NCBI RefSeq assembly: GCF_040436345.1
Contig: NC_133220.1
Location: 38,534,664 to 38,598,663 of the forward strand
Length of the DNA: 64,000 nt
Source: Pagrus major
Lineage: Eukaryota; Chordata; Actinopteri; Spariformes; Sparidae
Direction of reading: 5' to 3'
Of the stretch, positions 29,078 through 50,201 are shown one piece after another. Each line of letters begins with the position of its first letter. Positions within the stretch are counted from its first letter, which is position 1. The notes beneath the pieces were generated by a model. The model was given only the letters and a program-made list of their open reading frames with translations. It searched no databases and was not told the origin of the DNA. A program made the translations under genes and the position numbers.

Positions 29078-29221
29078 GTGGGACTAAAACACTTAAAACA
29101 AGTGAAAAAGTCTAACATAAAAACTGCTTACTGAGAAGAACTATCTTATCAGACAAAAAACAAGCATATATCACCTTGATCTAAGATATTTCATCTTACT
29201 TAGATTTCAGTTTTTGCAGTG
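29078..29221. mobile_element. Orphan right terminus of an EnSpm/CACTA element
   Basis: AT-rich subterminal DNA ends TTTTTGCAGTG, the inverted form of CACTGCAAAAA seen at 32756. It may be the lost 3' end of the plus-strand transposase copy (stop at 23032), pushed away by the LTR-like and LINE insertions, or a fragment of a separate element. Confidence 0.55.
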
Positions 29222-30261: not shown

Positions 30262-32442
30262 CAGGGGTGTCCAAACTACGGCCCGCGGGCCAACTGCGGC
30301 CCGCGGTCCAGTTTTTATTGGCCCGCAGCAAATTATGAAAATATAATTGACCATGGCCCGCAGCCCGCACATGAAGCTTGAACTCAACTCTGTTGCACTT
30401 CTCAGTTTTAACACTAGATGGAGCCAGCGCTAGTGCTTCTCCACTAAACAAAATTAAGCAAAGAAGAGCTTTTCCCGCGAGCCCGTACAGTTACCAGAAA
30501 TGGCAGAACCGAAGAAACGGAAAATAGCAAGTGAGTGCAGAAGATTCCAGACACGGTGGGAAAATGAATATTTCTTCAAAGAAATCAACGGAAAGTGTGT
30601 CTGTTTGATTTGCAATGAAGCTGTTGCTGTGATGAAAGAGTATAATGTCCGTCGGCACTATGAGACCAAACATCAGAGCTACACATCGTACACCGGTGCT
30701 GAACGAACACAGAAATTCAAGCAAATGGCAGCTAGCCTGCAAGTTCAACAACAGTTTTTTTCCCGTGCCAACAAAATACAAGAAAATGCCACAGCAGCAA
30801 GCTATGAAGTTGCTAAACTCATTGCCCAGCACGGCAAACCATTCTCAGACGGTGATTTCATAAAGCAGTGCCTCATCAAAGTCACAGAAATAATGTGCCC
30901 GGAAAAAGTGCAGGATTTTAACAACGTGAGCCTGTCCAGAAATACAGTGGTGCGGCGAATCGAGGACTTGTCAGCTAACTTGAAAGATCAGCTCAGAGAC
31001 AAAGCTTGTGCTTTTGATTTTTACTCAGTTGCATGCGATGAGAGCACAGATGCTACAGACACCGCGCAGCTGTTAATTTATTTGCGGGGAGTTGATAATA
31101 ATTTTTGCTGTACGGAGGAGCTGCTTGATATGAAGAGCCTAAAAGGCACAACGACGGGCAAAGACATTTTTGAAGCTGTGTCAGATGCAGTGGAAAATAT
31201 GGGGCTAAAATGGGACAAGCTCTGTGGAGTAACAACGGATGGAGCTCCGGCTATGACGGGTGAGCGCAAAGGAATGGCATCGTTGGTGTGCGCCAAGGTA
31301 AAAGAGAGCGGAGGTGAGGCTGTTCGAGTGCACTGTATAATCCACCAAGAGGCACTGTGCGCTAAGACTGTCCAGCTGGGCGATGTGATGAACACTGTTG
31401 TAAAAACTGTCAACATAATTCGAGCTAGAGGACTGTACCACAGAGAATTCCAAGCTTTCCTATCTGAGGTGGATGCTGAATACGGGGATGTGCTCTACCA
31501 CTGTGACGTGCGGTGGCTCAGCCGCGGCTCTGTGCTGCAGCGGTTTTATTCGCTGAGATCAGAAATCGACGAGTTTTTGAAAGAGAAGGGCCGACCGCTT
31601 CATGAGCTGAGTGACCATCTATGGCTGGCAGACTTGGCATTTTTAGTTGATCTCACTCATCATCTGAATACACTGAACAAGAACCTACAAGGCAAAGAAC
31701 AGCTGGTGCCACACCTGCATGCGCACATCAAAGCGTTCTGTGTAAAGCTCCGCCTATTTGAGACACAGCTACGGAGCTTTAATGCTGCACACTTCCCCAC
31801 GCTGTCTGAAATCAAGTCTGCGTTTCCAGAGGCCAAGCTTTCTGCTAAAAAGGAAAAATATGTGTCTGTGATTGCATCTCTTGTGACAGAATTCAACCAG
31901 CGTTTCCAAGATTTTTCTGCCATTGAGAAAGAAATCAGGCTGTTCTCCACTCCCTTCATGGTGGATGCAGAAGAAGTGGAAGAGAGTCTGCAGTTAGAAC
32001 TCATTGAAATGCAGTGTGATGATCTTCTGAAGAGTCAACATCAGCTTCTCTCCCTCCCTGACTTCTATCAGAGTTTGGATAATGCCAAGTTTCCTCTGAT
32101 GCGACGCCACGCAAAAAGAATGATGAGCCTGTTCGGCTCAACATACATATGTGAACAAACATTTTCTCTGTTAAATCAGAACAAAAGCAGACTGAGAACC
32201 AGAATGACTGATAGCCATCTCTGTGAAGTCCTTCGTGTCTCAACCACCAAACTTTCTCCTGACATGTCAGCCATCCTGCAGTCCAAAGCACAGCATCACT
32301 GCTCCCACTGAGTGAATGTTCTTTACCGGTGAGTTAGAAATGTGTAGGAAAAAATTGTGTTAATATGTAACCAGTGTGTGGCCCAGCCCTTTGTTTATTT
32401 TTCTGTATTTGGCCCTCACTGAAAAAAGTTTGGACACCCCTG
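30262..32442 (+). mobile_element. hAT-3, GTF2IRD2-like (Charlie/Buster-type) hAT
   Basis: The TIRs CAGGGGTGTCCAAACTACGG and AAAGTTTGGACACCCCTG are flanked by the perfect 8-bp duplication CTTTATGC (30254-30261 and 32443-32450), which fits nnnTAnnn. It contains one intact transposase ORF. GGCCCGC-rich subterminal repeats lie inside the left end and GGCCC motifs near the right. Confidence 0.95.
30500..32311 (+). CDS. hAT transposase, GTF2IRD2-like, intact 603 aa
   Basis: Single-exon transposase. A BED-like finger covers about residues 25-60 (C35, C38, H53, H58: CLICNEAVAVM...RRHYETKH). Catalytic core: VACDESTD (D180) and VTTDGAPAMTG (D247). C-terminal dimerisation region FGSTYICEQTFSLLNQNKS with E552. 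Length is normal for an intact hAT protein. Fish copies are commonly labelled general transcription factor II-I repeat protein 2-like because mammalian GTF2IRD2 carries a captured transposase of this type. No GTF2I repeats are present here, and the exact TIRs mark it as a transposon gene. Confidence 0.92.
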   Translation: MAEPKKRKIASECRRFQTRWENEYFFKEINGKCVCLICNEAVAVMKEYNVRRHYETKHQSYTSYTGAERTQKFKQMAASLQVQQQFFSRANKIQENATAASYEVAKLIAQHGKPFSDGDFIKQCLIKVTEIMCPEKVQDFNNVSLSRNTVVRRIEDLSANLKDQLRDKACAFDFYSVACDESTDATDTAQLLIYLRGVDNNFCCTEELLDMKSLKGTTTGKDIFEAVSDAVENMGLKWDKLCGVTTDGAPAMTGERKGMASLVCAKVKESGGEAVRVHCIIHQEALCAKTVQLGDVMNTVVKTVNIIRARGLYHREFQAFLSEVDAEYGDVLYHCDVRWLSRGSVLQRFYSLRSEIDEFLKEKGRPLHELSDHLWLADLAFLVDLTHHLNTLNKNLQGKEQLVPHLHAHIKAFCVKLRLFETQLRSFNAAHFPTLSEIKSAFPEAKLSAKKEKYVSVIASLVTEFNQRFQDFSAIEKEIRLFSTPFMVDAEEVEESLQLELIEMQCDDLLKSQHQLLSLPDFYQSLDNAKFPLMRRHAKRMMSLFGSTYICEQTFSLLNQNKSRLRTRMTDSHLCEVLRVSTTKLSPDMSAILQSKAQHHCSH

Positions 32443-32450
32443 CTTTATGC

Positions 32451-32755
32451 GCATGAACGTGCTCCTTAGCAGGGATACAATACGAAAAGGAATTACATCA
32501 TTTCATTAGCTGCACCGGGAAAATGCTTCAAGTACTGGTCCTAACAGTCACATGTTAGCCTACTGCTTGAGACTATTGCATATTAGTAGGACATTTAGCA
32601 TTTCAATTCATGATCTGACTGAAAGTTGACCACAGTAGAATGTGGGAAACACAGAATGCACCTGACAATCCCTATAAATAATCGCTTGCCACCCATCACA
32701 TAAGCTTCCCATCACCCATCTAACTCCAGACTTCATTTTTTTTTACATAGCAACA
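32451..32755. other. Short spacer between hAT-3 and EnSpm-2
   Basis: AT-rich, without gene or repeat that I can name. Confidence 0.4.
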
Positions 32756-33325
32756 CACTGCAAAAACTCAAAATCTTGCCAAGTATATTTTTCTAATTTC
32801 TAGTCAAAATATCTCATCACACATAATATAAGACAAAATCACCTAAAGAGCAAGATTTAAGTGAGATAAAGGAGCTTGTTTTTAGACAGTGCATCTTGAA
32901 TATCTTGTTAAGTGAAACTGTCTTGAAAACATCTTGTTTTGAGTCATATCTCAGATGAAACAAGCTTTTTTGACATGTCATAAGGTTTTTAAGCTGCTGT
33001 GTTATTTGTAAAAGATGAATCATCTTGTTTCAAGAAATAAACTTAACTTGAATTGAGACAACAAATCTGCTTTATTGAAAACTGCAGGTCAACATGCCCA
33101 ACTCACAACAACTCACAATGCACAGTACAGTGTGGCCATTTTTCTTACATTTCCATCAAACCATGTCCATGTGATATGTAAAAAAGACAGAGGCAAAAGC
33201 TGGAATTATGTTTCCTTCTCTGTTCTGTTGCACTCTGGACATACTGCACCACATTATTCCAAAAGTAATAAGTAAAAATAAATGCTGTCATCAATTACAG
33301 TGTTTGTCAGTGCTTAAAAAAAAAT

Positions 33326-36300
33326 TCAGCCCAAATACCCACACTCAATACAGACTAAAGAATGATGTTTGATGATGTCTGTGAGATCATACTTCAGTGG
33401 AATGTACTTGCTATTATTGAAGTTTACATAGTAGTATGGTGTATAATCAACAAGCTTTTCAGCATCCATGAAAATATTGGCTTGAGCTAGGTTGGGAACT
33501 TCTACCTCGTAAGCTAAATAATGATCATTCCACCCAACCGTAGAGAGAGGTTGGCATTCAAAACAATACACTGACGCATTTAAAATATAAATGTTTTTCA
33601 CAAGTGCAAACTCTGGAGTATCATTGATGACATTAGAAATAACCAAAGATTTTCCACATGTATGCTTATTTCCATGTTGCATAATCCACTGTACCGAAAC
33701 TATATGTTCAACGTGCTGTATTCCTAAGAAGTCTTTAATCTTTCTTTCTACATAGTGAACATTTTTCACCTCAGAGGCTTGGCCCATGTCAACTTCACTT
33801 GAACAAATTGGAGGTTTCTCATGCACATTCTGACTACATTCATAAAGTTGGTTGTGCTTCATAAGAGACTTACAGATATTTTTAAAACTACTTTTCAAAG
33901 CCCACTGCTTAAAAAAGCAATGCTTTGACTCAAAGTGCATACACATATGCCTCACGGTAGGACCAAGTGCCTTAATCTGAGAAGGAAGATGCAGCAAGTA
34001 ATGCTGTTTAGGTATAATATTTGCATCTGGAAACAGTTGTTTGAAATGTTTTAAATGTTGCTCTATTAAAAGCTTCAGCCTTAAAAAGTGTTGAGAGAGC
34101 AATAATAGGTGAAAACAGAATTTTGACTATCTCTAACAACTTAAGTAGCATTTGTGTGTAATCATTTTCTCCAATTTTGTCAATGAGAAATGGCAGGATC
34201 TTTAACAAAACCAGCATCTGCCCAGCTGACTGTTTCAATTTATTGTCATTTGATGACAGTGTATTGACAGATATGGGGCAAGGCTTATCCCTTGCATCCA
34301 CAGGAGAATAAGGGAAACAAATAATTGCACTGTTGAATGCGTCTTAGTCCATATGCCCTGAAAGCACAAGATGCTTTAAAACACATTTGATTTCATATGG
34401 GGCAACACCTTCAAGAATGACATGCATGATGTCCTGTGGGGTTTGATTGATTATATCAAAGTGAGAAAATTCTGTTAATTTGCTTCTCCTGTTTATGCCA
34501 CATGTCATTTGTAGATTGTCTTTCAGAAAGTCAGTATTTGCCTTTTCAATGTCATTACATTGCCTGTTATGACTTGCCATTGTCCTTTTAACAAACAAAT
34601 CTTCATTAAATTGCTCCTGCATGTCTTCAAAGTTGCATTTGCAGTGCCTGCATTTACTGTAGGCAAATCCCACTCCTATCTTAAATCCAGCCACTTCATG
34701 CTGAGCTAGAGTGTCTCCACACACAGACATAAGTGCCCCATAAATTGTCTTCTCACCATTTGCAGTGACAACCTGGACACCATCACACAGCTCAGTTAAG
34801 TCACGGTTAACCCTCTCAAATATCTCATCAATACCACAATGGGAAAGATCTTTTGATTTTACCATGGCAAGCAGACGAATGGCAGCAAGCCTTGATCTGT
34901 ATTTAGGGTTGATGTTACCTAAGGTGTAATAAATCAATAACAATTTGTTTTTGTTTGCCCGAGATCCAAGAGGATTGCATAGCTCAATTTCATCTGTATA
35001 TAAAACCAACTGCAATGCTGTGGGAAATTTCAAAAACAGTGGATGCGACTTAAAAATGTCTCCATCAATGAAATCATGAAAAAATCCATCCTTGCATGTC
35101 TGTGACCTCTCATCAATCATTGCAATTGTTCTTGGATGTGATAGCAGCTGCTCCAAACTTTTCACCAACGGTATATAATAAAAAAACAATGGTCCTTAAT
35201 GGTAAAGAACTCTGGAGTCTCCATGTTTCACATAACATACTGTTTGTTTTGCGACAACAGTCTCTGGTTCAACTGGTTCTAACAGTTCTTTGATGGTCTT
35301 ATCCTGCAAATGGGTGGAAGCAATTTGACAGAAAAGGCTCAACAAACTGGTCAAATATCCCCATTGCATCACTCTTTAGTTGATCCAGGTCCCCAGAATC
35401 TCTCTCAATCATGTCGCTCATTTGCTGTTTTAGGTGCTCCAATAATGCGGCCTGATATTGCTGGACTCCACTCACCATTTGGTTAACAGCTCTCTGGGGA
35501 GTAGAAACCAGACAAACAAACAGACAAAATATTACATTATAAAATTCATATAAAAATGCAGTCAACATGCAAACTCACAGACACTTTTTTTTTAAAGTAA
35601 CCCTTCAATTACATATTGTTAGTGACATGCAATGATCAAAATAGGCTATTTCCAGCAAAACTATCATGAAATAATATTGCCTTCTGCAGCTTTAAGACCT
35701 TGTTTACACTTGGTCTTAAAATGTGTTTTGAGCAATAGGATCACAAGTGGACAGTGCTAAATAAAAGTGTAAGTGTTGGGTGTATTATGTTGTCTCTATT
35801 CTTAGCTCATGCTCAACAAATATAGTGGATGGGCAGATTTTGTAAGCAAAGTATGTGTCCATTTGCATATATAGCGGGGAAGTGAGATCCAATCACAAGT
35901 GGTCACTGAAAAAGCATGTGGAGACACACAATGTCAGGTGTTTCTCTGACATACCTTTAGCTGTCCACCTGTGATTGGATCAACCAAGATGCCAGGTCTG
36001 AACAGTGGCTAAGTCATTCTACAGTTTAAGCTTATTGCTTTTAAGCTTGCTACTAAAAATGAAATATAATTAATTGGAAAATCAATGGCATAAATTACCT
36101 GTGTCAGTCGATGGGTTTCTCTGGCTTGAAGAAGAAATGCAGTTGCATGTTTAGAAAGGTCAACATTCATGCGACCCTCTCCATCTTCTTGAAATCCACT
36201 CAGAAAGAGATTAACAACAAACATATCTATTAAAACAGGGAAAATATTGGCATTTGTAGGTAGCACCACCAGACAATCTGACAAATACCTGGGTAAGCTA

Positions 36301-37998
36301 GCTAGCTAGACTTCTTCCTATAAAAAAGGTACAAGATGGGTGTATTTTTACTGATTGGTGTCTTTATTTTGAGTATGTAAAATAACAACAAAAACAACAA
36401 CTAATAAAAACAAATCAAAACAGTGCTACAAAAAACAATGACTTTGACAGCATCAGAAAAAATCTGTACTTCATGAGTGTTAAGATTGACACACATACTA
36501 AATTGTGTCCCTTCACTTGCTCTCTTGCCAATAAATTAACATTACTAAAGGCCTTTGAACTGAACTTGTATTCCAATAAGCTATAAGGAGACAACTTCCT
36601 GTCACACACTGTCATGAAGACATGTCTCACCTGCCAGTTATAACTTTGTGAATGATAAGCTAATAATACACATATTACAGCCTTGATGCTCAATTCAAAC
36701 TGTAGAAGGATAACCTGTAATTTTTAATTTGTTGTTTAAATGACTAACATTAACGTTACTGATTTTTTTCAATGAAGTCTGGTAACTGAATTACATAACT
36801 AATAATTAAACTAAACAAATTAAACTAATAATCAAATAAGTTACCAATTACTGCATATAAAATTAAGCAGTTGTCAGAAAAGTAACTTTTGTGTTACTTC
36901 TAAATATTTGCTTTAATTCTCTTATTAATGTGCAGATACACTGCTATTATTTTAGTGTACCTAAATTTCTTTTTCTTGACGTTACACATTTGAACACATC
37001 ATGATGACATTTTATTTAACTTTGCCTAATAGTCATTTTACTGAGCCCACCTTGAACACATCATACGTAAACCTCCTTCTGTCAGCTAACTAGCTTTCAC
37101 CCTGCTGATTTCAACACGTATTTCAACACTGGATTACCATTTTTAACTAACGGGACTTGCTACTAAGTTTGAATGCATTTACCAGCGGATGGATGAGTAA
37201 AAAACTGTCTGACTGGACTGCTGCAGCAGCAGGAGACAGAGACACAAAGCTGCAGTCCAGTATATCTACGTATATGCACTCCACTACACTTTTCAGCCAA
37301 GGTGAGTTTATCACGACTGAGTCTCATATGTATGCAATCAAATACAGGTTAATTGATGCTCGCTGTAATGTAATGTCTGGTGACATTAGATCATAAGTGG
37401 ACAATCTGTGGGGCGGTAGGCTGCGTTTGTCAACATAAATGTAACCATTAACTAGCCGATTTAAATCTCAGTAGGCTAGTTGTATTTGCGTTACTGGTTC
37501 GATTACTCGTTATTGACAAAAGTAGTGGAATTACAGTAACGCATTACTTTCAACACTGCTATTACTTTATCTTAAAATTACAACCTGAGCCTGTCATTGA
37601 CAAAAACAAACATATTTAGTAGATGTGCTTGGATCAGGCACAGTTGACCTAAATAAATGTTATGTTAAATTTTAGCTTGTGTATCGACTTACCGCTGGAA
37701 TGACGATGCTTGAGCCCTCCGCTTCAGCCACTGGGCTTGCATTAGTTTGGTCGTTTGCGGCTGTCCTTTCACCTGCTCCAGGTAAACCGTGGCAAGTCGG
37801 TCCTTCCTCCTCCGCCGCTTCAACTTGGAGAAGATGATGCGCGTGTGTCCGCTTCACGTGATAGTAGAAGGAGTTATACACCCTGTACTCAATTGGACAA
37901 CAATCAATCCCGCACACGTGCATGGTATTGATGTGACTCAAAAGTTGTTTCAGAGTCAGTGCCACAAATATATAGCATATGAAGCAACGCCAAATCAT
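33326..37998 (-). pseudogene. EnSpm/CACTA-like transposase copy 2 (minus strand)
   Basis: Exon 1, 37998-37693: MIWRCFICYIFVALTLKQLL, then a C2H2-like segment VCGIDCCPIEYRVYNSFYY...HAHHLL, and a GTAAGT donor. Exon 36176-36099: ends ATAFLLQARETHRLTQ. Main exon, 35493-33326: RAVNQMVSGVQQYQ, FFYYIPLVKSLEQLL, LYTDEIELCNPLGS, SVCGDTLAQHEVAGFK, FAYSKCRHCKCNFEDMQ, DIINQTPQDIMHVILEG, QHYLLHLPSQIKALGP, CMHFESKHCFFKQW. Lesions include compensating frameshifts near 35190-35225, a nonsense codon just after SGHMD (about 34342) and a frameshift near 34090. All differ from the lesions of copy 1. A counterpart of copy-1 exon 2 was not found. Transposase identity rests on motif resemblance and the CACTG ends. 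Confidence 0.72.
36740..37558. mobile_element. Possible non-autonomous hAT in transposase intron
   Basis: The right end, in reverse complement, reads CAGTGTTGAAAGTAATGCG, like a common fish hAT MITE terminus. AAGTAAC-type subterminal motifs occur near 36880. The left border is uncertain. Confidence 0.35.
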
Positions 37999-38366
37999 GT
38001 TGGAAGCAAAGATGTCACAGGCAAGAGGAGGGTAAACTGGTCACAGGTCGGTAGAGCAAGACTGCTGTAAAAACTCGTTACTGTGATTACACCCGCCAGC
38101 TAGCTGCTGCAAATGAGAATGTGGGCGTAAACTAACGTTATTTGGGACCGACTTGGATTTGAACTAGGATTGACGTGTTTCATTGCAAGTAAATTAAAGC
38201 GCTGTATCCAGTGCTCATTCTTTGTAGTTCACATCGCACACCCTTTGAATGTTAAAGACGTTTCAATGTGTTTTCAGTGTTTATTGTGTATCGTTGCAGC
38301 CGAACAGAGACAGCGAGGTGAGCTAACGTTAGCGGAGCTAACTAGCTAGCTAAGTCAGCTAACAGC
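37999..38366. promoter_or_regulatory. Divergent intergenic region between the two EnSpm-2 genes
   Basis: The transposase ATG (minus, 37998) and the SAMD3-like ATG (plus, 38367) lie head to head, so this stretch of about 370 bp must contain both 5' UTRs and a shared or back-to-back promoter. No clear TATA box was seen. GTTAGCGGAGCTAACTAGCT lies just upstream of the plus gene. Confidence 0.45.
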
Positions 38367-38995
38367 ATGGAAGAATTGGATGATGTCGCAGTGTCGATTT
38401 TAAGGGGTAATGTATGCAAATATTATTCTTTATCATATATGAACGTATGAATGCAGAGGCCTAATTGAAGCTAAAAAAAAGAAGCTAATTGCTTCCTGGC
38501 GCTGCTCCACATGTGACCCGCTACAGCAGCACTGTGGGCCTCAAACTCTTTCTCCCATTTGACACATCACGATCCTTCTGTCACCTGTTGTGTGAAGTGT
38601 TATGTGTGGTTGGTGAACTGTAGGAACTGAATTGCGCTTTGGGGATAATGTTGTATATTACGTTGTGTTCAGACCAAAAGCAAAGTGAGTTTTTGCCTCC
38701 CGTTACTCACGCCATTTTGTTCCCGCTAAATTCATAAACTGTGAAGACTAGTCAACTAATGGCGACAAATGACAATTGTTGGTCACTAGGAAAATTCTTA
38801 GTTGGTGGCAGCTGTAGTTATACTAGTAACGTCTGTATGACATACAACAGCAGCCAATGAGGCATCTACATTTCTATACTAAGCTGGTTAGCACTAGCTA
38901 CCTAATTTGAAGTGTCAACTTCTAATAGTTTCATGCAGTTTCATTTCTAGGGCACAGTTTCATCTTGTTATGTTTGTCTTCCAATGATTTCATAG

Positions 38996-39123
38996 CTGCA
39001 AACATCACAGAGACAATGATGAGCACCCTGTCTCGTGAAGACTTGCAGGATCTTTTCCCAGGCCCAGAGAACTTTTTACGGAGAAAAGCGGTCTGGCGTG
39101 CCTGTCATGGTGCGTCGGAGGAG
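38996..39123 (+). CDS. SAMD3-like gene, exon 2
   Basis: Flanked by a TTTCATAG acceptor and a GTCAGT donor. It joins exon 1 in phase 1 to give ILRAANITETMMSTLSREDL followed by QDLFPGPENFLRRKAVWRAC. This is the most family-diagnostic block of the gene. Confidence 0.6.
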
Positions 39124-39415
39124 GTCAGTTTCTCAGTTAAGTAGCCTAAACTAACCACCTATTTAAGTTGGCAACAGCACATTGAGCTAACAGCACAGTG
39201 TTTTTGGAACAGGCATGGTAGTCTACATGTGTGTTCAATTTAGTTTAGATTAATTGATAGGTGTTCAGTTAGTTGATGTAAGCGATTTCACCCCTAAAAT
39301 GGAACATTGCTTATTTATACGTGTGCAGAGCTGTCAATGCTACATTGCATTTTGTGTTGTCACAAAAAACAAAAATGTTGCTTTTTGCAGTAGTTCATTA
39401 TCTTTTATTTTACAG

Positions 39416-39823
39416 GAGTCTGGCCAAGAACACTCAAAATTATCGGGCAGTTCCTCCTTTAATGCGTCACCCATGCGACAGACATCCACTCCTGTGAACG
39501 CAAGTCCTGCAAAGTACACAACCCCTGAAAAGGTTGTGAAGTTATCCTTTCCAGAATATGTATTGCACACCGACACAGAACTTGAGCAAGTCCGACAACA
39601 GTACTTTGAGTTGTCGAAGAGAGGCGAACAGTGCAACTGCCAGATGTCAAAGGAGCTCAGATGCCGTCTCATTCGAAACACCATGACCAGTATGATTGCA
39701 ATCCTGAGGGCAAAGGGGGATGGAGAGTCACACAGATACCCATCAAAGCCAGAAATTACAGCAATGGCAAAGAGAATAGTACTGTACTACCCCATGCTGC
39801 AGGACCAAGGCCTCCATACATGG
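39416..39823 (+). CDS. SAMD3-like gene, exon 3
   Basis: 136 open codons in phase 0 between TTTTACAG and GTAAGT. Serine/threonine-rich linker (SSFNASPMRQTSTPVNASP), then VVKLSFPEYVLHTDTELEQV and LRCRLIRNTMTSMIAIL, ending YPMLQDQGLHTW. No internal stop. The pattern (basic helical block followed by PSKPEITAMAKRIVLYYPML) is conserved in the fish family as I recall it. Confidence 0.6.
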
Positions 39824-39928
39824 GTAAGTGAAATGCATCCAGTTGACTGTGTTTCATGTTGGACATTTTTAGTAGCGATTTGAAAAATGTATTAAATGTC
39901 TTGTACAGGTCACTGTGTACACACAGCT

Positions 39929-40982
39929 CAGGGTTTCCGCTACATGTAATTGATCGTGGCGCACCGCCACGGCAAAATAAAAGCCGCCACACCTTCAGAA
40001 TGATGATTTTTTTTTTTTTTTTTAATGTTAAAACAATGTAAAGCAGGTTTTCCACTAGAGGTTGCACAGACTAGTCCCCTGCTCCACAATGACGTTTTGA
40101 GCTTGACGTCGACTAGTCGCTGATCATGTAACAGTAGGCTACGAGAGTAGCGGCTTGAAACAACAGCTGAGTGCGCTGAATGAAAAAAATACGAGCGCAG
40201 TCAAGCTGGATAGAACGAGCGCGTACCAGACAGGAAGTCGGGCACAGAAAAGGCGAGAGAATCCGGTCAATTTTCAAAATAAAATAAATGATGATTAAGT
40301 TTGCTTGTCCGTCTATAAGTATTTGTCAGTTGCGTCTGCACACAAGACACATCCATAGGCTACATACAGCGCTAGAGACAGACCTGTGTTTGGAAAACCG
40401 AGCAGATACAGACGGGTTGATGTTTGACCGGCGCGGAGAGAGAGAGCAGGAGAAACTGCCGCTTCCGCGGGCAGTGTGTCCGGGCTGCCGGCAATTAAAA
40501 AAAACAAAAAAAAAAACTCCGCTCATATCGACAGCTTTACGTCGCGCACAACAACAACAGCAGCAACCAACCAGGAAAAACTAAAACTGTGAGTGAAACT
40601 GTGACTGAGCAGGACTGTGATGGTGACGAGGCCTGTGTGTCGTTTTCCTCCCTAATTGTTTAATGAACAGTAGCTACAGTATTTTCTTTTGCACCTGTAG
40701 GCTATATGTTACAAAAAAACAAACTGATTTACAGCTTGTTGTTTATAAAGCTGCTGTACTGTGGACTCATTTCTGTGCATGAGCTGTCAGTCAGTGAAAC
40801 AGATTGTTGCAGAGCATTTCCCTCCTCCTGGGATTTTAGTTATGATGGGAAAAATATGAATGATGTCATCAGCGACTAGTCGACGATCCGGTCGCGCGCA
40901 CCCCCCCCCCCCCCCCCCCCCCCCCCCGTCGATCAGCCCACCCTCGCCGCCACTCTTTAAAAAAATCCTGGCGGAAACACTG
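39929..40982. mobile_element. Non-autonomous hAT-like element (CAGGGTTTCC ends) in exon 4
   Basis: The ends CAGGGTTTCCGC and GGCGGAAACACTG are flanked by CAGCT on both sides (39924-39928 and 40983-40987). The 5-bp repeat is shorter than the 8 bp expected for hAT. It contains an inner inverted pair around GACTAGTCGCTGAT (40105 and 40865), suggesting a second nested element, and a 27-bp C homopolymer. Confidence 0.65.
40901..40927. repeat. Poly-C/poly-G tract, 27 bp
   Basis: 27 uninterrupted C residues. Length may be unreliable because of sequencing error. Confidence 0.9.
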
Positions 40983-41054
40983 CAGCTATACAAAAGATTG
41001 CAAAATGTGAGATCCCCCCAAAAAAGAACTCCAGATGGGAGACATTCAAAGAGG

Positions 41055-41559
41055 TGAGCTGTAACTAATGATTATTTTCATCAAAGATTCATCTGTTAAT
41101 CATTTTCAAGATGAATTGATTAGTTGTCTGGTCAATATAAAGTCCAAGGTGATGTCCTCAAAAGTCTTGTTTGGTCCACAACCTAAAGATATTAATTTCA
41201 CTGTCATAGAGGAATAAAGAAGCTAGAAAATATTCACATTTGAAAAGCTTAAATCATATTTGGACATTCAAAAAAAACAAAGAAAAAAAAGAAAAATGAC
41301 TCAAAATGATCAATCATGTCAATGTCCTGGGTGATCTGTCTCTAGTGTTTCCTCACTTCCCGTTTTTAATGAGTGCTCTTATTTTAGTGTTTGACTACAA
41401 AGTAATTGCTTTGGATGTGTGTGGGGGATATTGCTTTTTATTACGAAGCACTTTGTGTTACATTTTGTTTGTATGAAAAGTGCTATACAAATAAAGTCAG
41501 ATAGGTATTGATTGATTTAGTAGTTGACAACTAATTGATTAACTGACTTTGCAGCTCTA
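41055..41559. mobile_element. 505-bp non-autonomous hAT MITE in exon 4
   Basis: Ends TGAGCTGTAACTAATGATTA and, in reverse complement, TAGAGCTGCAAAGTCAG. The perfect 8-bp duplication CAAAGAGG flanks it (41047-41054 and 41560-41567), and removing it restores the reading frame of the host exon. No coding capacity. An internal stretch near 41470 (AAAAGTGCTATACAAATAAA) resembles SINE/L2 tails. Confidence 0.85.
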
Positions 41560-42084
41560 CAAAGAGGCGCTGTCTTGAGTGACCAACAGACACGGATGAA
41601 ATGGATTCAAGTGACTCAACAATCATTCTGGATCAGTCCACAGAAGGAAGTGGCAGCACAGGCTCAGACAGTAAAGGAAGTGAGTTAGAAGGTGAGTTTC
41701 AACTTTGCATTTACATATTTGCCCTTGTGAGGTATTTATATTTTAGATAAACTAATAAACCCACTTTATTGGTCAAGATGACAGAAGTAAAAGGCTTTAA
41801 AATGGACATCAGAGGATAGGTATTTACACTACATTTGTACTGTTTTATTATCAATTTATTAACATTATTGTAGAAATTAAGTTTTAACAGAAATCTGGTA
41901 TTAATAAAAAGCTGGTATTGTATCATTTTGAACAGCTGGGTACAGCAGTACCTTTTAGTATCAGTCTACTGTGCAACATTACTTTCTATAACCTCTCCAG
42001 CATATCAAATAATGTTATGTATTTAAAACCCATGTGTCTCATTAGTGGCATTTTTGCTCTTTTTAATTGAATGTCATTTTTGGT

Positions 42085-42205
42085 TCCAAAATACCGAAAT
42101 GATCCTTAAAGTACATTATCCTATCAGAAATATGTTTGTGTTATGTGGAAAAAGAAGATCCCAAAGCCTACCTGAAGAAGCACCCTCTGCCCTGTCCAGC
42201 CCTGA
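42085..42205 (+). repeat. Diverged duplicate of the terminal SAMD3-like exon in an intron
   Basis: The stretch reading EDPKAYLKKHPLPCPAL, with its upstream flank (GTTTGTGTTATGTG), matches the start of the last exon at 45580-45680 (EDPNSYLKKRPLSCAVL with the same flank). It is a partial, diverged copy lying about 3.4 kb upstream, in the intron before exon 5. Confidence 0.65.
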
Positions 42206-42420
42206 TTGTGAGTTTGTCCAACTGCCTCATGACTGTGTGTAGTGGGGGTGTGCGCATCTTTGTAGGGGTGTACTTGTGTGCCTACATGCAATTGTATGTG
42301 ATTGCATGACCACATGAGTTTCGAGCAAATAGTTCTCATGCATTTATTATACAAAAAATGATTTGATTTTTTAAAATGGCATTTAAATGGTTAAAATTCC
42401 AAAAATGAATAGGTATTTGG

Positions 42421-44152
42421 TAAGGGTGTCACGATTTCGATTGATTGAAATTAATTCACAATCTTGAACTTCGAATTAAAAAATGGAATCGCTGCCACGG
42501 CCCCATGTCACGTCCGGTGGCTTGCCAAGGGGAAAAAAACACACACGTTATGAAGTGCTGCGAGTCAACCTCCTCTAACTTAGCTACTAGCTAAGCCAGT
42601 AGCTATTAGCTACAGCCAGTCAAACGATAGCATGGTGTTACACCATTCCTGTTCGGCTCCCGGACCGTGGTTGGGAAGCACAGGGGAGATGATTTCCTCC
42701 AGGGCCGAAGTTTCTGTTTACCTTCGGGGTGAACCCCCTTTCACATGTTAAACTGGTCGGGAAATAATACCAGGGAGCTTTGCTGTATCTTGAGGAGCCG
42801 TCACCTTTATTCACAGCCAAACTGCAGCCTATCTTGTACACTTGCTGTCGCTACTACTGCTACTCCTTTCGCTTCTCCTTCCTCTCCCATTCATTCACTG
42901 TCTGCACGCTCCCTCACTCTCGCTCGCCCACTCACACCTTATGCACCTTGTATATGTCCAACTGTTGGGAAATAGTTTGTTAGGACACTTAATTGTTCAG
43001 AGAAGACTGTGGACATGGCTGTTTTATTTTTTTGTTTGTTTTGTTGTGAACTTGAATGTCATCTTCTGTGAAGAAGACTGCAGTTACAAAAGAGAAACTA
43101 GATGGCAGGTTATTTTGTTTAAGTTTCCAATTGACTGAAGATATAAGTTATTGTTACATTATGTTACGGTCCCCAGCCGTTAGTGTTTGCCGTTTAGGCC
43201 TCATGCAATTTGTATTATAGCTTTGGTGTTTATTTTCTCATCGGCTGTTTTCAAGCCCGAGTGAGCGCTCCTGTTTTCGCTGCCTGATTGACAGGTCCTG
43301 CCTCTTGCCACCAGCCATTGGTCCTCCGCAGCTGCAGCCGGTGAGCCGAGCAGTCCAGCTTCATATAGCGGTGCTCTTCAGACAGCATACAAGGGCTGTC
43401 ACTGTGCAGTGTGACTCCTCCTGCCTGCATAATCTGTTGTTCTGAACTTTGTTTAAATCGTGTGTAGTCAACTTCTGGTCGTAGTATTGTTAGCCTGTGT
43501 GTGTTAGCTACTGAGCTGTGCTATCCTTTTGCTGTGCTTCGGCACTCGTCCTTAGTTAAATCACCTTGTAAATAGCACTTTTTGCACATATAAATATTTC
43601 TCTTGTTAGGAAGCAGTAAGGGTGTAACTGCCATTTATTTTGATCCCCCTTTTTCTCCTGTTTTTGTTAGTTTAGGGAGTTAGGTTTAGCTGTTGTAATT
43701 TTGTTTGTTCTTTTGTTTCCTCCCAGGGCTAGATAGACTGGTCGAGAAGATAGTTTCTTTTGTTTATTATTTTGGCCTTAGTTCACCCTGAAGAGAAGCT
43801 TCACTTTGTTTTCTGTCACATTTTGTTTTGGCTTTATCCATACTGTTGTACTGATAATCCTTGATCATCTGAGCTGTTAACAATAAATTGCAGTTTTCCT
43901 GTTGCAAAACGTCGTTCTCTGCCTCATTTATGTTGCGCCTCTGTTCCCCTAGCCTGGGGCATAACAAATATGTTGTTAATAAATGTTTTAAATTTGACAA
44001 TGTAGTGTGGTGCATAAAAGTCTAGTCTAAAAATGGCATAGCAACCTGTGCTTTAAAAAAAATACATGTAAAAATCGAGAATCGAATCGAACCGTGACCT
44101 TAGAATCAAAAATTGAATCGAATCGAGGATTTGGAGAATCGTGAATCCCCTA
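42421..44152. mobile_element. Non-autonomous relative of hAT-2 in SAMD3-like intron
   Basis: Ends TAAGGGTGTCACGATT and, in reverse complement, TAGGGGATTCACGATTC. The perfect 8-bp duplication GTATTTGG flanks it (42413-42420 and 44153-44160). The right subterminal region has the same GAATCG-type array as hAT-2. No transposase ORF. A solo-LTR-like segment lies inside. Confidence 0.8.
43162..43966. repeat. Possible solo LTR
   Basis: The inverted ends TGTTACGGTCCCCAG and CTGGGGCATAACA, an internal AATAAA and about 805 bp length fit a solo LTR. Flanking CATTA and AATAT do not match, so the target duplication is not supported. Confidence 0.4.
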
Positions 44153-44329
44153 GTATTTGGTAGTTAGGATCAGGGCTGATATTTGTTAAAAGATTTAATT
44201 CCATGAAAGTTTAATCTAATATTAATGTATGATTTTTATGGCAGTTTTGACATATTTTTTGTCATGCAACAACATGAGATGAACTTTTTTTAAACTGAGG
44301 CATATTAATTATATTTTTGTGTCTTACAG

Positions 44330-44836
44330 CTAACAAGTCTGCAGATGTTGACAGTCCAGACGCCTACAGTCCAGCAACCTTGGCCAAGCACTACAAGACC
44401 CTACAAACTTTGTATAAAAGAAAAAATCCAAACCACCAGGATGTCTCTCATCTCTTGGATTTGGAATTTGTAGCCAGAAGAGCATTCATTGATTCAAATA
44501 CCGTTCGCGAGGAGGACAGACACGAGAAGGTTCTAGAAGCATATCCTTGTTTCAAGGACGTTGGACATGTAAGTCATTATTGACTGTGCATGATTAAAAC
44601 CATGGTATCACACACAATGTTTAAAATACCAATTTCCTCTTAAATGATATATTCAAATGTCTGTATTGGTATATTTGATATTTCATAGGTAATGGAGGAG
44701 CTTCAACGCGTTTTGGATAAGGATAATACCAACTTCATTGATGAACTGAAGGGAAGATGGCATGACTTTTGCCAGAAGGTCCAGTTTTTTGGTGTATGGA
44801 AAAAGGTGCTGAAACCCCCAATGGGAATGGACAAAG
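44330..44836 (+). CDS. SAMD3-like gene, exons 5 and 6
   Basis: Exon 5 (44330-44568) joins exon 4 in phase 1 and reads ANKSADVDSPDAYSPATLAK, HYKTLQTLYKRKNP, HLLDLEFVARRAFIDSN, ending at GTAAGT. Exon 6 (44689-44836) reads VMEELQRVLDKDNTNFIDEL, GRWHDFCQKVQFFGVW, KPPMGMDK and ends at GTAGGG. Both are open and in phase. Confidence 0.6.
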
Positions 44837-45630
44837 GTAGGGAATGCTGTTTTGGTGTTATTAGTGAATAGGGTTCAGGGTGGACCTTCAGGCATGTTAA
44901 TTGTCAAGTACATGAGCTAGTGTTTTGTCGTCCTTCTTTTTCATCTATGATGGCTATCCCATTATTTGCTGAATGTTTTTTTTTTTTAAGCATTGTGTCT
45001 GTTGTATACCTTTTGATCAGATTTGACCTTGTGCACTTTGTCCAAGAGTTGATGAATTAATTAATGAATCTTTTCCTGTACAGCTAAACAGGCTCTTGAG
45101 ATCCTACGTGTGCTGCCATCACTGTTCCCCTCCACGTCGAGGTGAGCTGTGTAAAATGTTGCAGGATCATTTTGACTGCAGTATCGGAAAAAATTATAAC
45201 TGAAGGTGCTGCCTCTGACGACTCCTAATGTATTTCCTATTCACATACTGTATGTTCTAAGCCTTCAAAGACACCTAAAACATTTGTTTTTAGAAAGAGG
45301 ATTTTCAATGGGTAGATGTCTTGGCTATGTCACAGTATGTACAAAAATGGGTGCATTACATGGTAGCAGGTTTTATCACCCTAATGATAACCAAGCAAGA
45401 CTAGCCTAGCCTTGGTTTTTAGTTCTTTTGGAAGGCTAGATGTGTGTAAACAGTAAACGCATTGGGGATAGTTAAAAACAGCACTTTCAGATGGAGCTTT
45501 CTCAGTACTGTAACTTTTGTCAGAATTTTGCTTTGTAAAGTTATGTGTTTGTAAACAACCCTCTACCCTAGGTTCCAAATGACCAAAATGCATTATCCTG
45601 ACAGAAGGATGTTTGTGTTATGTGTTGCAG

Positions 45631-45918
45631 GAAACAGAAGACCCCAATTCCTACTTGAAGAAACGCCCTCTCTCCTGCGCAGTCCTCCTAGCGGTAGGAG
45701 ATGTGGCAATAACCACCTTTCTAAAAGACAAGCTTACTGAGAGTGCTTTATACATTATGGCCTACTATTATACCCTACACCTGACTTATCCAAAGTGTGT
45801 AGCCACTCTGCTTTCAGTCATACAGACGGAGGTCCTCTTAGACAAAATCCATGAGAGAGATCTCACATCGTCTTACAAGAAGAGCATGGCTGAGTGGAAA
45901 GCTTTTATTGGCCAATAA
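45631..45918 (+). CDS. SAMD3-like gene, terminal exon
   Basis: After a TGTTGCAG acceptor, 95 codons run to TAA: EDPNSYLKKRPLSCAVLLAV, FLKDKLTESALYIMAYYYTL, LTYPKCVATLLSVIQTEVLL, KSMAEWKAFIGQ. No lesion inside. It does not join exon 7 (45084-45141) in phase, so an intervening exon may be missing. Confidence 0.6.
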   Translation, partial: ETEDPNSYLKKRPLSCAVLLAVGDVAITTFLKDKLTESALYIMAYYYTLHLTYPKCVATLLSVIQTEVLLDKIHERDLTSSYKKSMAEWKAFIGQ

Positions 45919-47354
45919 AACCAGTGGTCAGATATGGTGTAGGATAGCACTTCCTCTCCCTCAAAGGGCACTACAGTCCATGTTCATTGCTATTGATTCT
46001 TGGTCAGAATTTGGCTAAGTTAGCCCAGTGCTAATTTGGGGTGCACGACAATATTAGCCAACATGCCGATATCCTGTGATGTGATGTTATATTTTGTGTG
46101 TGTTTGCACAATTCAGTGCAGATTCTGCTTAGTTTTAAGTTTATTTTAACTTTTCAGTTAATATTGAGTTTGACAACTAATTGTCTGTTCAGCAGATGCA
46201 GTCACTAATTTAGGCACATCTACTGTGAAAGAGTAAATTGACTAAGCAGTTAGGTTGGGATAAAAGTGAACATAGCGGTATTGGTTATTGTCCAGTTGAG
46301 TTGTAAAATATTAACATATTGGATATCGGCAAAAAGTCCAGTATGGTGCATCCTTAATGATGATGTTACAATGGTTAATGGTGTATTGAGGGACAAGTTG
46401 TTCATGTAAGTCCAGAACCTTTAATTTGAATGTTACAATATTAAGCATTTGTATTAGGAATGAATATCACAGGTGGAGCAGTTATGGTGTGTCTAGTGTG
46501 TCTATATGTTTTGAGTGTGCCTGTGCAAAGCACAGATTTTGTACGTGTATTGAGGGGCACATTGGTCAGATGTTTGGACCTGACCTTAACTCACTCACAT
46601 ATTTGGCATGTTCTGCTATGTTTTCATATTGCAGTTCCATAAATACTGTAAGCCAAAATGTTGAGAAAAATGAAGCTGTTTCCCTTTCATGCAGTCTTCT
46701 GGGACTTTTTGCTGTTTAAATAAAAAAAAAAGTTGGTTAAATGCAAGACTAGTTTTCATTTTTTCTGTCTTATAAGAAGTAGTTAATGTCTTGAATCTAG
46801 TAGGTGAATGTCTTGAATCTAGAACAGTATTACTTTTGTAGAGCTTACAATAACGTAAATACACTTGAGATGATGACAGGATGGTAAATTACGGCTTATT
46901 ATGGCAAAAGAGCACTGCCTAATACGAGTCAGGAATGCTAACTTCAAGACATTTTGTCTCAAAATGCCAGTTTCTAATCTTATTTCAAGTAGGTGGTGGA
47001 CTTAAATCTAGAACAGTGTAACAATTATAGAACTAAAAATTAGTTAAATACACTTGAAACAAACAGGATGACAAAAAAAATGCTACTTTTGAGGGGAAAA
47101 TACTATTTTTGAGCATCACAAGCTTATTATGACACACAAAACATCACAATACTAGTAAAATATAGCTAAAAATGAGTTTTCCCAGCTAATTTCAAGATCA
47201 CTCTTATCTTGTAAGGCTTAAATATAATGTCTTATTTCAAGAAATCTTACCATCTCTTCACTTGTTCCATTGGCAGATTTTTTTGCTTATTACAAGCAAA
47301 CGTATCTTGTATTAATTTTTTTTGCTTATTTTTGGAGTGGCCTTTTTTCCAGTG
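45919..47354. other. EnSpm-2 3' noncoding and right subterminal region
   Basis: No gene. From about 46720 it becomes a mosaic of short related motifs (CTTGAATCTAG twice, TTATTTCAAG, CTTGAAACA, TCTTGTAAG) and ends at TTTTTTCCAGTG. Arrays of this kind near CACTA termini usually bind transposase. Confidence 0.5.
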
Positions 47355-50201
47355 CAGTCCTGTGTTGTCTTTGACAGAATCAATAAACATAAACACATTT
47401 AGATGTAACTTTATGTCCTGTAAACACATTTAGTTCTCCATCCTTATCCAGTTTTCTGTAATTATTATAATTTTCAGAGATGATGGAACTCCTTTCTCTT
47501 AGGCCAGGTACTCCAAGGTGTACAACAAAAAGTCCAGCAAGTAGAGCTTGTACACACTACTTTCAAAATGCATAGAAAAAATAATGAGAATGTGAAACTA
47601 TGTAAATTACTCTGAAAGTGACATTTTGCTAACCTCCCAAAAAGTAGAATTGGTAAATATGAAATGACTGTAAATGGCACAATTCTGATGTGACAGAGGC
47701 TATTTCTGGTTGTTTTCAGGAATATTTGTCACTGCATATAATGCAACTCAAGTTGTGGTGTTATAATAAATTCCTAAGGTCCTTGAAAAGCTGTATTTAC
47801 TGTCAGATAAGTAATTGTGCTATTCTTTCTACAGGACAATCACTGCCAAAACTGTAGAGGATTGAGACAGCACTGACATCAACAGCCTAACCTGTTAGCC
47901 AACACTGATCTGTGTTTTCAAGAAACCTCTGGATGTCCTTCCTGTATATAGTTATTTATGCTAATTGTACTGTATACTGTCTAAATGATAAAAGGTATAC
48001 TATTTTCGTAGTGTTATTTATTTACATGTGTAACCCTAACCCTAAAATGGAATAAACAAGAATCTCACCTAATTCAGTTGTTATTATTAGTGCATCACGG
48101 AAAGTGAAAGAACTGTAATGGGATGGTTGTTTATGTTGGAAGTGTAAAGAAAAGGCATTTATCATTTTCAAGACTTTATTCAAACAAGTTAGAGATAATG
48201 CAAAACAAGGAGTAAATACAGAACAACAAATAAATGTGTCAGGCAGAGTTCCAGCACTTGATGTGATTGCTCCAAATGTAGTCCGTGAATTCTGGCCTGT
48301 AAAGCAACAGATGAGCAACATGATTAGATATTTTTATGGAACAGAGCTTGACTGTCCTCAGCATACTGTGAACATATACACTTTCAATGGTCAATACTTT
48401 AGACATTCCTGGACAAAACTGTACAGATGCCCCAGTTTATATAAAAAAAATTTTAAGTACCAGCCCTTTATCTTTCTTTACATTTTTCTACTTACTGTGT
48501 TTATTGTTATGCACCAAAACACGAATTCAAATGGTGAAAAACTACTTGGCAAAAAATGTGATTCTGATTAGGGCACTTGTGTGTCCAAGTCACATGCCTG
48601 GTCAATATACTGTACAAACACAAATAGTTGTAGGTGATGTTTATCAGGAAAAAAAGCACCAGTAATGTTCTATGTTAGATGCTGACCTGCTCATGTGCAA
48701 TCTACTGAGCTTGAAGATCATCTACTCGATGTATGAACATCTGCTCTTTGACCTGTCGCCCTTCCACGGCCTCCACTTCTTCGAACACTGCTGGTTGCCC
48801 TCCTGTCGTCCTCTCTGACAAGATGATGGGCTTTGCTCTGGCGTGTCTTCGTCATCAGAGTCAATGATGCTGTCATCGTGCAAGCTCTAACATGCAAATC
48901 ATCATATTATCAAGAGTCCAATACAATATTCACGTTCGTCTGTGAATCACTGAGAGAAACAAAAAATAAAATATGTAGCAGGCCCACCACTAATCTTGAT
49001 GTTTTAGCTTTGCCATATCTAATGTTACTATCAAAATACACTTTCAAAACAATGTCTGAATGCTAACAAAGATAGCTTGACAGCCATCAGTGCTAGCAAT
49101 GGCTATGTTGGTTGTTTACGTTAAATATGATGATACTTAAAGGTGAATGAGACATGAGGTAGCTACTTGTTGGTAGATGTTGTGATGAAAACAATGCACT
49201 GGTACTCCGATGGCAGTATTCGGTAGTTGTCAGCATTCATGGTTTGGGGGGAGCAGCTTTGGAGAGAGGCCTGAGTGCAGGGGTTTACTGGCTGGATACT
49301 TCCAAAATATAGCCTGGGCTTGATGATTTTTCCAACTTACCGACCCCAGCTTTAATATGAATTCCCATTATGTGTTAGCATTGAGCTAGTGGGCTGAGTG
49401 CTGTTATATAAAAATCTTTTCGGGATCCAAAGAATGCATGCTGTAATATTTCCTTGTATACAGTATGTAGTTCACATACTGTTGGTTTCATACATACCAA
49501 TAAAGGTACCATTTTAGTCAACTAAACAGCATGTTGGTAAGGTATTTCACAAGTTTTGGGGAGACGTTTCACTCTGCCTCTCTTTATCGTTACTGTAAAA
49601 AGAGAACTCAGGTGCTGAAATTTGGCACCAATTGATTTGATGTGAATTGCTACTCCATAGTACCGACATAATTTGGTCGGTACCCTTAAAAGTACAGTCT
49701 GGTACTCAACCCTAATTCAGATACACTGAGAAGGAGTGTTTGACTTGGATTGGTTATGATAGCTGCAGATGTTAGTAGTGATGCTTGATTTTAAGATTAC
49801 ATTTGTTAGGGTTAAAATAGTTAAACTAGAAGAAGCCATTTATCGAATTAAGCATTTAAAAGTATGTTGAAGGTGTGGGTAACTGAGAGCTTGTTGCTTC
49901 GCAGAGGTGTTAAGTCACAATATAAGATGGCACGGCTGGCAAAGTTTTGGCTGCAAACAAAAAGCACAAAATACACAACTGGCTTTAGCTGCCTAGCTCA
50001 GCTCAAACACCAAAGCTTCACACAAAGAGGGGTAACAATCACAGAAACCGTCTTAGCTTGTGTGGAGTTATTTATTCCTCCCACTGTTTAAGGGCTTTTG
50101 TGCATAACACTTTAAGGTTAGCAGGTTAAACTCATGGGTACACGCCTCTTTACAGAGCCCATAGTTTCATGGCACTCAGGTCTCCCTTGCCTTGGTAAAT
50201 T
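47355..50201. other. Mostly unassigned intergenic DNA
   Basis: No protein-coding gene I can name. A two-copy telomere-like motif (AACCCTAACCCTAA near 48033) and AATAAA near 48050 are present. A minus-strand candidate terminal exon (PEFTDYIWSNHIKCW) ends near 48239 after a TTTACAG acceptor at about 48298. AT-rich sequence continues to the MULE-like element. Confidence 0.35.
48722..48886 (-). CDS. Candidate terminal exon, unknown gene
   Basis: After a GCATGTTAG acceptor, 55 codons run to TAG. The peptide starts SLHDDSIIDSDDEDTPEQ and then becomes basic (QRGRQEGNQQCSKKWRPW). An acidic-then-basic tail is plausible for a nuclear protein, but no family is recognised and no upstream exon was linked. 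Confidence 0.3.
   Translation of the reverse strand, partial: SLHDDSIIDSDDEDTPEQSPSSCQRGRQEGNQQCSKKWRPWKGDRSKSRCSYIE

Follow-up and report, generated by a model that had tools for sequence, protein, structure and literature searches.

The window analysed here is a 64,000-nucleotide stretch of Pagrus major DNA (assembly GCF_040436345.1, contig NC_133220.1, positions 38,534,664 to 38,598,663 of the forward strand; coordinates below are counted from its first letter). It contains an EnSpm/CACTA-type element that encloses two spliced genes and later insertions (Table 1). The minus-strand gene encodes a transposase of the CMC/EnSpm group, and the plus-strand gene, called the accessory gene below, most likely travels with it. 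A reading made from the letters alone (the sequence-only reading) had proposed two spliced genes on opposite strands between CACTG and CAGTG ends, about 370 bp apart, and this arrangement was confirmed: the plus gene starts at 38367 and the minus gene at 37998, with 368 bp between the start codons. Observed/expected CpG ratios in three 200-bp blocks of 37801-38400 were 0.87, 0.73 and 0.95, compared with 0.54 for the whole window; the raised ratio between the starts might fit a putative shared promoter. In this copy both genes are broken, and the element itself is decayed.

Ends of the element

The terminal inverted repeats, CACTGCAAAAA and CACTGGAAAAA, were identical at 10 of 11 positions and are of the short inverted CAC..GTG form that is a criterion for EnSpm/CACTA (CMC) elements. 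Four copies of CACTGNAAAAA were present in the window against 0.52 expected, a count reached by 1 of 100 shuffles. Subterminal repeats at both ends are a hallmark of EnSpm/CACTA elements. When 5-mers were ranked from the left 330 bp only, with the extents of the end blocks set by eye, TCTTG/CAAGA came first; eight copies were located in each end block, 330 bp on the left and 620 bp on the right; among 1,224 further 620-bp windows, which overlapped one another, none reached this count. Other left-ranked words were weaker on the right, two of the five best 5-mers being unremarkable there and two of five 6-mers and three of five 7-mers absent. Both ends, with the subterminal TCTTG/CAAGA in common, belong to one element. 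Target duplications of EnSpm/CACTA (CMC) elements are 2-3 bp long. At the flanks of the single copy inspected, CA was found on either side (chance 1 in 16), and the three adjacent bases (ACA/CAG) gave no 3-bp target duplication.

A second, solo EnSpm-like end was seen on the minus strand at 29090-29221 (CACTGCAAAAACTGAAATCTAAG..., with CACTGCAAAAACT... at 29211-29221). It lies about 3.5 kb to the left of the element and faces away from it.

The minus-strand gene encodes a CMC/EnSpm transposase

The transposase gene comprised three exons, the frame across the exon 1/2 border being provisional, and its best annotated relatives were up to 82% identical over 99%. Exon 3 carried in-frame stops near 35197 and 34343 and frame changes near 35330 and 34100. 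CMC transposases are DDE enzymes with C(2)C and H(3-4)H between the second D and the last E (PMC12730594, cited here and below from an excerpt). In an alignment of 22 relatives, D321, D414, C438, H651, H655 and E675 were invariant and C435 was conserved at 90% or more; the same DDE, C(2)C and H(3)H letters were read in the transposase pieces of the window.

Hidden Markov models of the Transposase_21 type, as suggested for this protein by the sequence-only reading, found Transposase_21 in 9 of 22 relatives and DUF4218 in 13 of 22 (E up to 0.1), with best E values of 8.1e-6 and 1.6e-6, respectively. The nearest relative, P0121, matched DUF4218 alone (0.0058) and the window pieces matched DUF4218 at 0.051, both below the curated cut-off. 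The core was modelled as a RAG1/Transib-like fold in predicted structures of relatives. The predicted fold also pointed, unexpectedly, to a possible BAH-like domain at the C-terminus; a profile of this C-terminal region had no BAH match by sequence, and nothing useful in the PDB matched the transposase profile or the BAH-region profile by sequence. Judged from motifs, fold, families and termini, the minus gene is a CMC/EnSpm transposase, and the EnSpm/CACTA assignment of the sequence-only reading was borne out.

No transposase relatives were found on viral contigs. Among prokaryote genome contigs there was a single transposase match (L001, 36% identical), on a contig in a sponge-symbiont bin, which is probably sponge DNA in a bacterial bin. 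Positions 1-7999 of L001 (Cycloclasticus sponge-symbiont bin) showed a broken CMC transposase next to open reading frames (ORFs) judged by eye to be hAT-like and retroelement-like.

Probable co-inheritance of the two genes

The protein lists comprised the best 120 of 187 accessory matches, all 97 transposase matches and the best 120 of 247 SAMD3 matches. Trees were constructed by a quick method from 50 accessory proteins and 31 transposases. A lineage test was run on genus-named proteins only (117 of 120 accessory and 31 of 97 transposase), with species pooled by genus. Acipenser P0189 was included in the tree and lay outside the test, the reverse was true of P0184 and P0216, and both analyses excluded oyster P0191 and spider P0215.

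Lineages A (the window copy, Gadus, Epinephelus, Nerophis, Myxocyprinus, Xyrichtys and Sarotherodon), B (Solea, Archocentrus and Pampus), B' (Nothobranchius and Sarotherodon), C (Astyanax, Gymnodraco and Coilia) and E (Menidia and Siganus) were matched across both trees; lineage D comprised Sarotherodon and Coilia, and Gadus too under the lineage-test assignment. C and E grouped together in both trees (SH-aLRT 90 and 86), and B, B' and D formed one group in both (94 and 100); lineage C was without a clade of its own in the transposase tree. Both window genes belonged to lineage A.

Both proteins were present in 17 genera, and 19 of 24 transposase genus-lineages were paired with the matching accessory lineage. 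Because lineage names had been assigned from trees with genera visible, the matching was re-optimised in each shuffle of the control; the shuffles gave a mean of 11.75 and a maximum of 17, and none of 20,000 reached 19. In Solea both proteins, represented by P0031 and P0135 of lineage B, were placed on one 29,262-bp contig, judged by equal size of the longest contig, which is the only contig that each protein row gives. Same-lineage coincidences on chromosome-sized contigs were seen in Astyanax (C), Menidia (E) and Sarotherodon (D, P0088 and P0148); the two Sarotherodon proteins are source-named NSD2 and LETM1, genes that we take to be neighbours. The lineage comparisons strongly indicate co-inheritance by lineage; direct linkage outside the window is thin. 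Support for the proposal of the sequence-only reading, in which the second gene moves along with the element, came from the lineage co-occurrence, the common main branches and the Solea contig.

Several observations weigh against it. What the sequence-only reading had named as evidence against its proposal, such as SAMD3-like copies without a transposase neighbour, was found only in part, as unpaired genus-lineages and as fused gene models of mixed lineage. Among the matches listed, the unpaired genus-lineages were 5 of 24 for the transposase (Fundulus A, Gasterosteus E, Gymnodraco B, Pampus E and Sarotherodon E) and 9 of 28 for the accessory protein (from the best 120 of 187), and accessory lineage F was without a transposase counterpart. 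Longest contigs coincided in 4 of the 15 shared genera with sizes in both lists, and a coincidence on a 136,974,929-bp contig of Sarotherodon paired B' with A and E, lineages that do not match. Fused gene models mixed lineages, Gouania P0120 joining accessory A to transposase D and Pampus P0216 transposase E to accessory B. L001, the one outside DNA locus found, was without a recognisable accessory gene, and other repeats cut into it. The 2-bp target duplication gives support no better than 1 in 16, and both window genes are damaged, so this copy shows no activity.

P0120 and P0216 were rejected as proof of linkage because their pieces are of differing lineages; they point to elements lying side by side, or to joins made during annotation, and not to a single element. 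They hint that such elements perhaps land beside or inside each other.

The plus gene could belong to an ordinary host SAMD3-like multigene family, the transposase having landed beside or around it and the CACTG ends being coincidental or derived from a larger chimera. Its members are annotated as plain genes, SAMD3 is a host gene in amniotes, repeats crowd the window, and the unpaired accessory genus-lineages among the matches listed and the mostly differing longest contigs point the same way. We consider this improbable, however, since the co-occurrence of lineages went past 20,000 shuffles, the main branches were common to both trees and the Solea contig carried both proteins; moreover, the window copy was 92% identical to the Xyrauchen protein over 450 columns and clustered (support 100) with those of Pungitius, Clarias and Gadus, presumably fish of distant orders. 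More improbable still is that two independent elements, a CACTA transposase copy and an unrelated accessory-bearing repeat, nested or abutting, came together at this locus only. Nested insertions are frequent in the interval, and the mixed lineages of both fused models indicate that such elements do end up side by side; yet both window genes were of lineage A, other fish showed the matching lineage partnership, and one matching terminus pair, with a repeat common to both ends, enclosed both genes.

Structure of the accessory gene

The exon order of the accessory gene was taken from annotated relatives such as P0001, and its product was up to 84% identical to annotated fish proteins over the whole query (P0001, Pungitius). 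For eight exons joined, AG preceded 7 of 7 inner starts and GT followed 8 of 8 ends. Exon 4 was interrupted by a nested insertion of 1,053 bp (39930-40982) with hAT-like ends (CAGGGTTTCCGC/CAGTGTTTCCGC) and CAGCT (5 bp) on either side; the peptide VTVYTQL precedes the insert and the following conserved residues lie beyond it, and both stretches are joined in P0001. Position 40986, counted among the seven inner starts above, was rejected as the start of exon 4, being exon sequence that lies behind an insertion. Exon 6 duplicated the start of the last exon including the intron border (42108-42207 versus 45585-45692), in another reading frame, and the shifted peptide was also present in Pungitius and Xyrauchen proteins. 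By its insertion, TGA, missing AG and lost residues, the accessory gene copy in the window is dead. In three accessory relatives (P0035, P0073 and P0074) an ORF of 509-531 aa ran without interruption on a contig of 2.1-2.3 kb, while the window gene needs about nine introns, which suggests that accessory relatives are transcribed and spliced.

Two further features were seen within this gene: a long C-run near 40900-40926, inside the nested insertion of exon 4, and an intronic repeat at about 42424-44155 with rough inverted ends (GGTGTCACGATT.. / GGGGATTCACGATT..).

Table 1. Coordinates of the element, its ends and its two genes in the window
Feature	Position	Strand	Remarks
EnSpm/CACTA-type element	32756..47354		14,599 bp; encloses both genes and later insertions; basis: inverted CACTG(C/G)AAAAA ends, common subterminal repeat
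Left terminal inverted repeat CACTGCAAAAA	32756..32766	+	
Right terminal inverted repeat CACTGGAAAAA	47344..47354	-	
Possible 2-bp target duplication CA	32754..32755 (left copy), 47355-47356 (right copy)		weak, chance 1 in 16
Left subterminal repeat block	32756..33085		8 TCTTG/CAAGA
Right subterminal repeat block	46735..47354		8 TCTTG/CAAGA
Transposase exon 3	33326..35493	-	about 2.2 kb; DDE/RAG1-like core, DUF4218-like part, BAH-like C-terminus (domains via relatives)
Transposase exon 2	36099..36198	-	
Transposase exon 1	37693..37998	-	start codon, C2H2-like N-terminus (C2H2 by eye); matches P0121
Divergent start region, putative bidirectional promoter	37999..38366		368 bp; basis: coordinates, CpG
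Accessory exon 1	38367..38406	+	SAM-like fold begins
Accessory exon 2	38996..39123	+	SAM-like fold
Accessory exon 3	39416..39823	+	domain 2, conserved YPS..YYPML
Accessory exon 4	39909..41053	+	split by nested insertion 39930-40982
Accessory exon 5	41567..41691	+	one in-frame TGA; start picked by frame
Accessory exon 6 (approximate)	42149..42207	+	no AG at start
Accessory exon 7	44330..44568	+	domain 3
Accessory exon 8	44689..44836	+	domain 3
Accessory exon 9	45084..45141	+	
Accessory last exon	45613..45918	+	domain 4, stop; start approximate; few P0001 residues missing

The accessory protein and its relation to SAMD3

The N-terminus of the accessory protein was modelled as a SAM fold in predicted structure. 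None of 33 accessory relatives matched the Pfam SAM profile at E up to 0.1, and the accessory protein was without any Pfam match. The SAM label given by the sequence-only reading has some support from the predicted fold, and SAM as a Pfam-level sequence call was rejected.

The SAMD3 records found were host genes of mammals and reptiles with an N-terminal SAM by Pfam. Vertebrate SAMD3 resembles the accessory protein in having an N-terminal SAM (by Pfam in the former, SAM-like by predicted fold in the latter) followed by three domains in order, and the three remaining accessory domains aligned weakly in the SAMD3 order; the likeness in sequence is near the detection limit. When the domains were aligned one by one in register, with borders that we set ourselves, 0, 1 and 9 of 100 column shuffles equalled the real score, the probabilities being all under 10%. 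The whole accessory and SAMD3 profiles gave an hhalign probability of 1.6%, which is not significant. A profile search one way scored the best SAMD3 at 12.4 bits versus 3.8 for the best of 2,520 decoys; the reverse way, a decoy ranked top. SAMD3 as a sure homologue was rejected as an overclaim, as only the domain-wise in-register test leans positive. The accessory protein looks like a distant relative of vertebrate SAMD3.

The accessory gene could also be a SAMD3-like gene captured from the host, one that hitchhikes or serves the element through a host-derived role (e.g. dampening antiviral or silencing responses) and is not a DNA-end partner. The three SAMD3 domains aligning in order and the SAM-like N-terminus would fit such a capture, and host-type genes on transposons are known, e.g. 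TET/JBP in fungal EnSpm (PMC12730594). We regard it as rather unlikely, given how weak the SAMD3 homology of the whole profiles is and given the co-divergence across several lineages, which suggests that the element needs the gene for its own cycle. By an opposite route, SAMD3 would have been domesticated from the accessory gene of a RAG1-like CACTA transposon; as with RAG1/RAG2, a CMC/Transib-type element would then have given vertebrates a gene, this second time from the non-catalytic partner. This idea is tentative and rather unlikely. SAMD3 has, we assume, a role in immune cells.

Neither the accessory protein nor its profile found anything useful by sequence in the PDB. A viral fold library gave no match below E 0.46. 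Other rows of the accessory fold search (RecJ, 14-3-3, CoaBC and others) were scattered and were set aside. No accessory relatives were detected on viral contigs, either with the first 192 residues or with an alignment as query, nor did the right-end 21-mer have an exact match there.

Proposed mechanism

The locus is probably best explained as a decayed two-gene CMC/EnSpm (CACTA-type) cut-and-paste element, with a long-standing, co-diverged accessory gene whose product is proposed to be a TnpA-like end-binding partner. From the ends, the subterminal repeats and the CMC transposase found here we infer how it may have worked. The transposase, with its RAG1/Transib-like core, would cut at the CACTG ends, as is established for the group, and its C-terminal BAH-like domain may read histone or nucleosome state. 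The SAM-like N-terminus of the accessory protein would permit multimerisation, and the protein's basic linker, which resembles an AT-hook in some lineages, would bind AT-rich DNA. RGRPK is the core of the AT-hook; it was present in 6 of 120 accessory proteins and [KR]{4,} in 55 of 120. The accessory protein would coat the subterminal TCTTG/CAAGA repeats, the AT-rich repeated ends being its natural target, and would either pair both ends for the transposase or regulate a promoter shared by the two genes. Plant TnpA binds subterminal repeats. A job like that of this second ORF (TnpA) of plant CACTA elements is proposed because the ORF2 protein supports excision in specific families (PMC4158355, from an excerpt). 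One point tells against this role: the looser basic motif K[KR].[KR] was equally common in SAMD3 (116 of 120, versus 104 of 120 accessory proteins).

Comparison with known systems

Plant CACTA (En/Spm) elements likewise combine short inverted ends of the CAC..GTG type with two ORFs, of which one encodes a transposase. In contrast to these, the second protein here is SAM-like/SAMD3-like and divergently transcribed, and a 3-bp target duplication was not seen; the proposed likeness to TnpA is one of role. RAG/Transib elements (RAG1L-RAG2L, ProtoRAG) have the RAG1-like core fold in common with the fish transposase, and Kapitonov and Koonin reportedly described the RAG-type two-gene plan with a non-catalytic partner. 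Transib/RAG elements produce a 5-bp target duplication, whereas the flanks of the one copy here differ past two bases; the BAH-like domain is on the fish transposase itself. RAG2 gave no match to the accessory protein in the searches run, a direct RAG2 comparison not having been made. Ends of the CA..TG type occur in most cases in the wider RAG/Transib-related group (PMC12730594).

Fungal EnSpm and other DNA transposons carry a TET/JBP dioxygenase as a second, non-transposase gene (PMC12730594). This is a different cargo, which in part of the fungi hops between superfamilies, whereas the fish one co-diverges with its transposase. Zebrafish EnSpm-N elements (EnSpm-N6_DR, 346 bp, and others) are EnSpm repeats in a fish genome; unlike the element described here they are non-autonomous, and an accessory protein is unmentioned in the excerpt of PMC3485254 that describes them.

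Judged by title or abstract, no transposon-borne SAMD3-like gene was found in the open-licence PMC literature, and neither a CACTA element with a SAM-fold partner nor a transposase with a BAH domain came up among the open-licence PMC matches listed; Repbase is outside this scope, so a second protein may be recorded there. Two-ORF CACTA elements in plants and cargo-bearing EnSpm elements in fungi are already known. The SAM-like/SAMD3-like partner in fish elements and the BAH-like tail of the transposase were absent from the matches listed and are apparently new.

Neighbouring sequence

Just outside the element, an open frame of 617 aa was present at 30458-32311 (+). Its protein, read from an internal ATG, matched the Spin-doc zinc finger (E 4.4e-13) and, weakly, a hAT dimerisation domain. 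The frame appears to be a hAT-derived gene or element.

Significance

If this two-gene element is correctly described, many uncharacterised fish ‘LOC’ proteins would be transposon accessory genes and not host families. Animal CACTA elements would possess a machinery of two proteins, open to assay with near-intact copies. The BAH-like tail would offer a testable idea for chromatin sensing by a RAG-like transposase. The origin of SAMD3 would likewise be placed in a testable frame.

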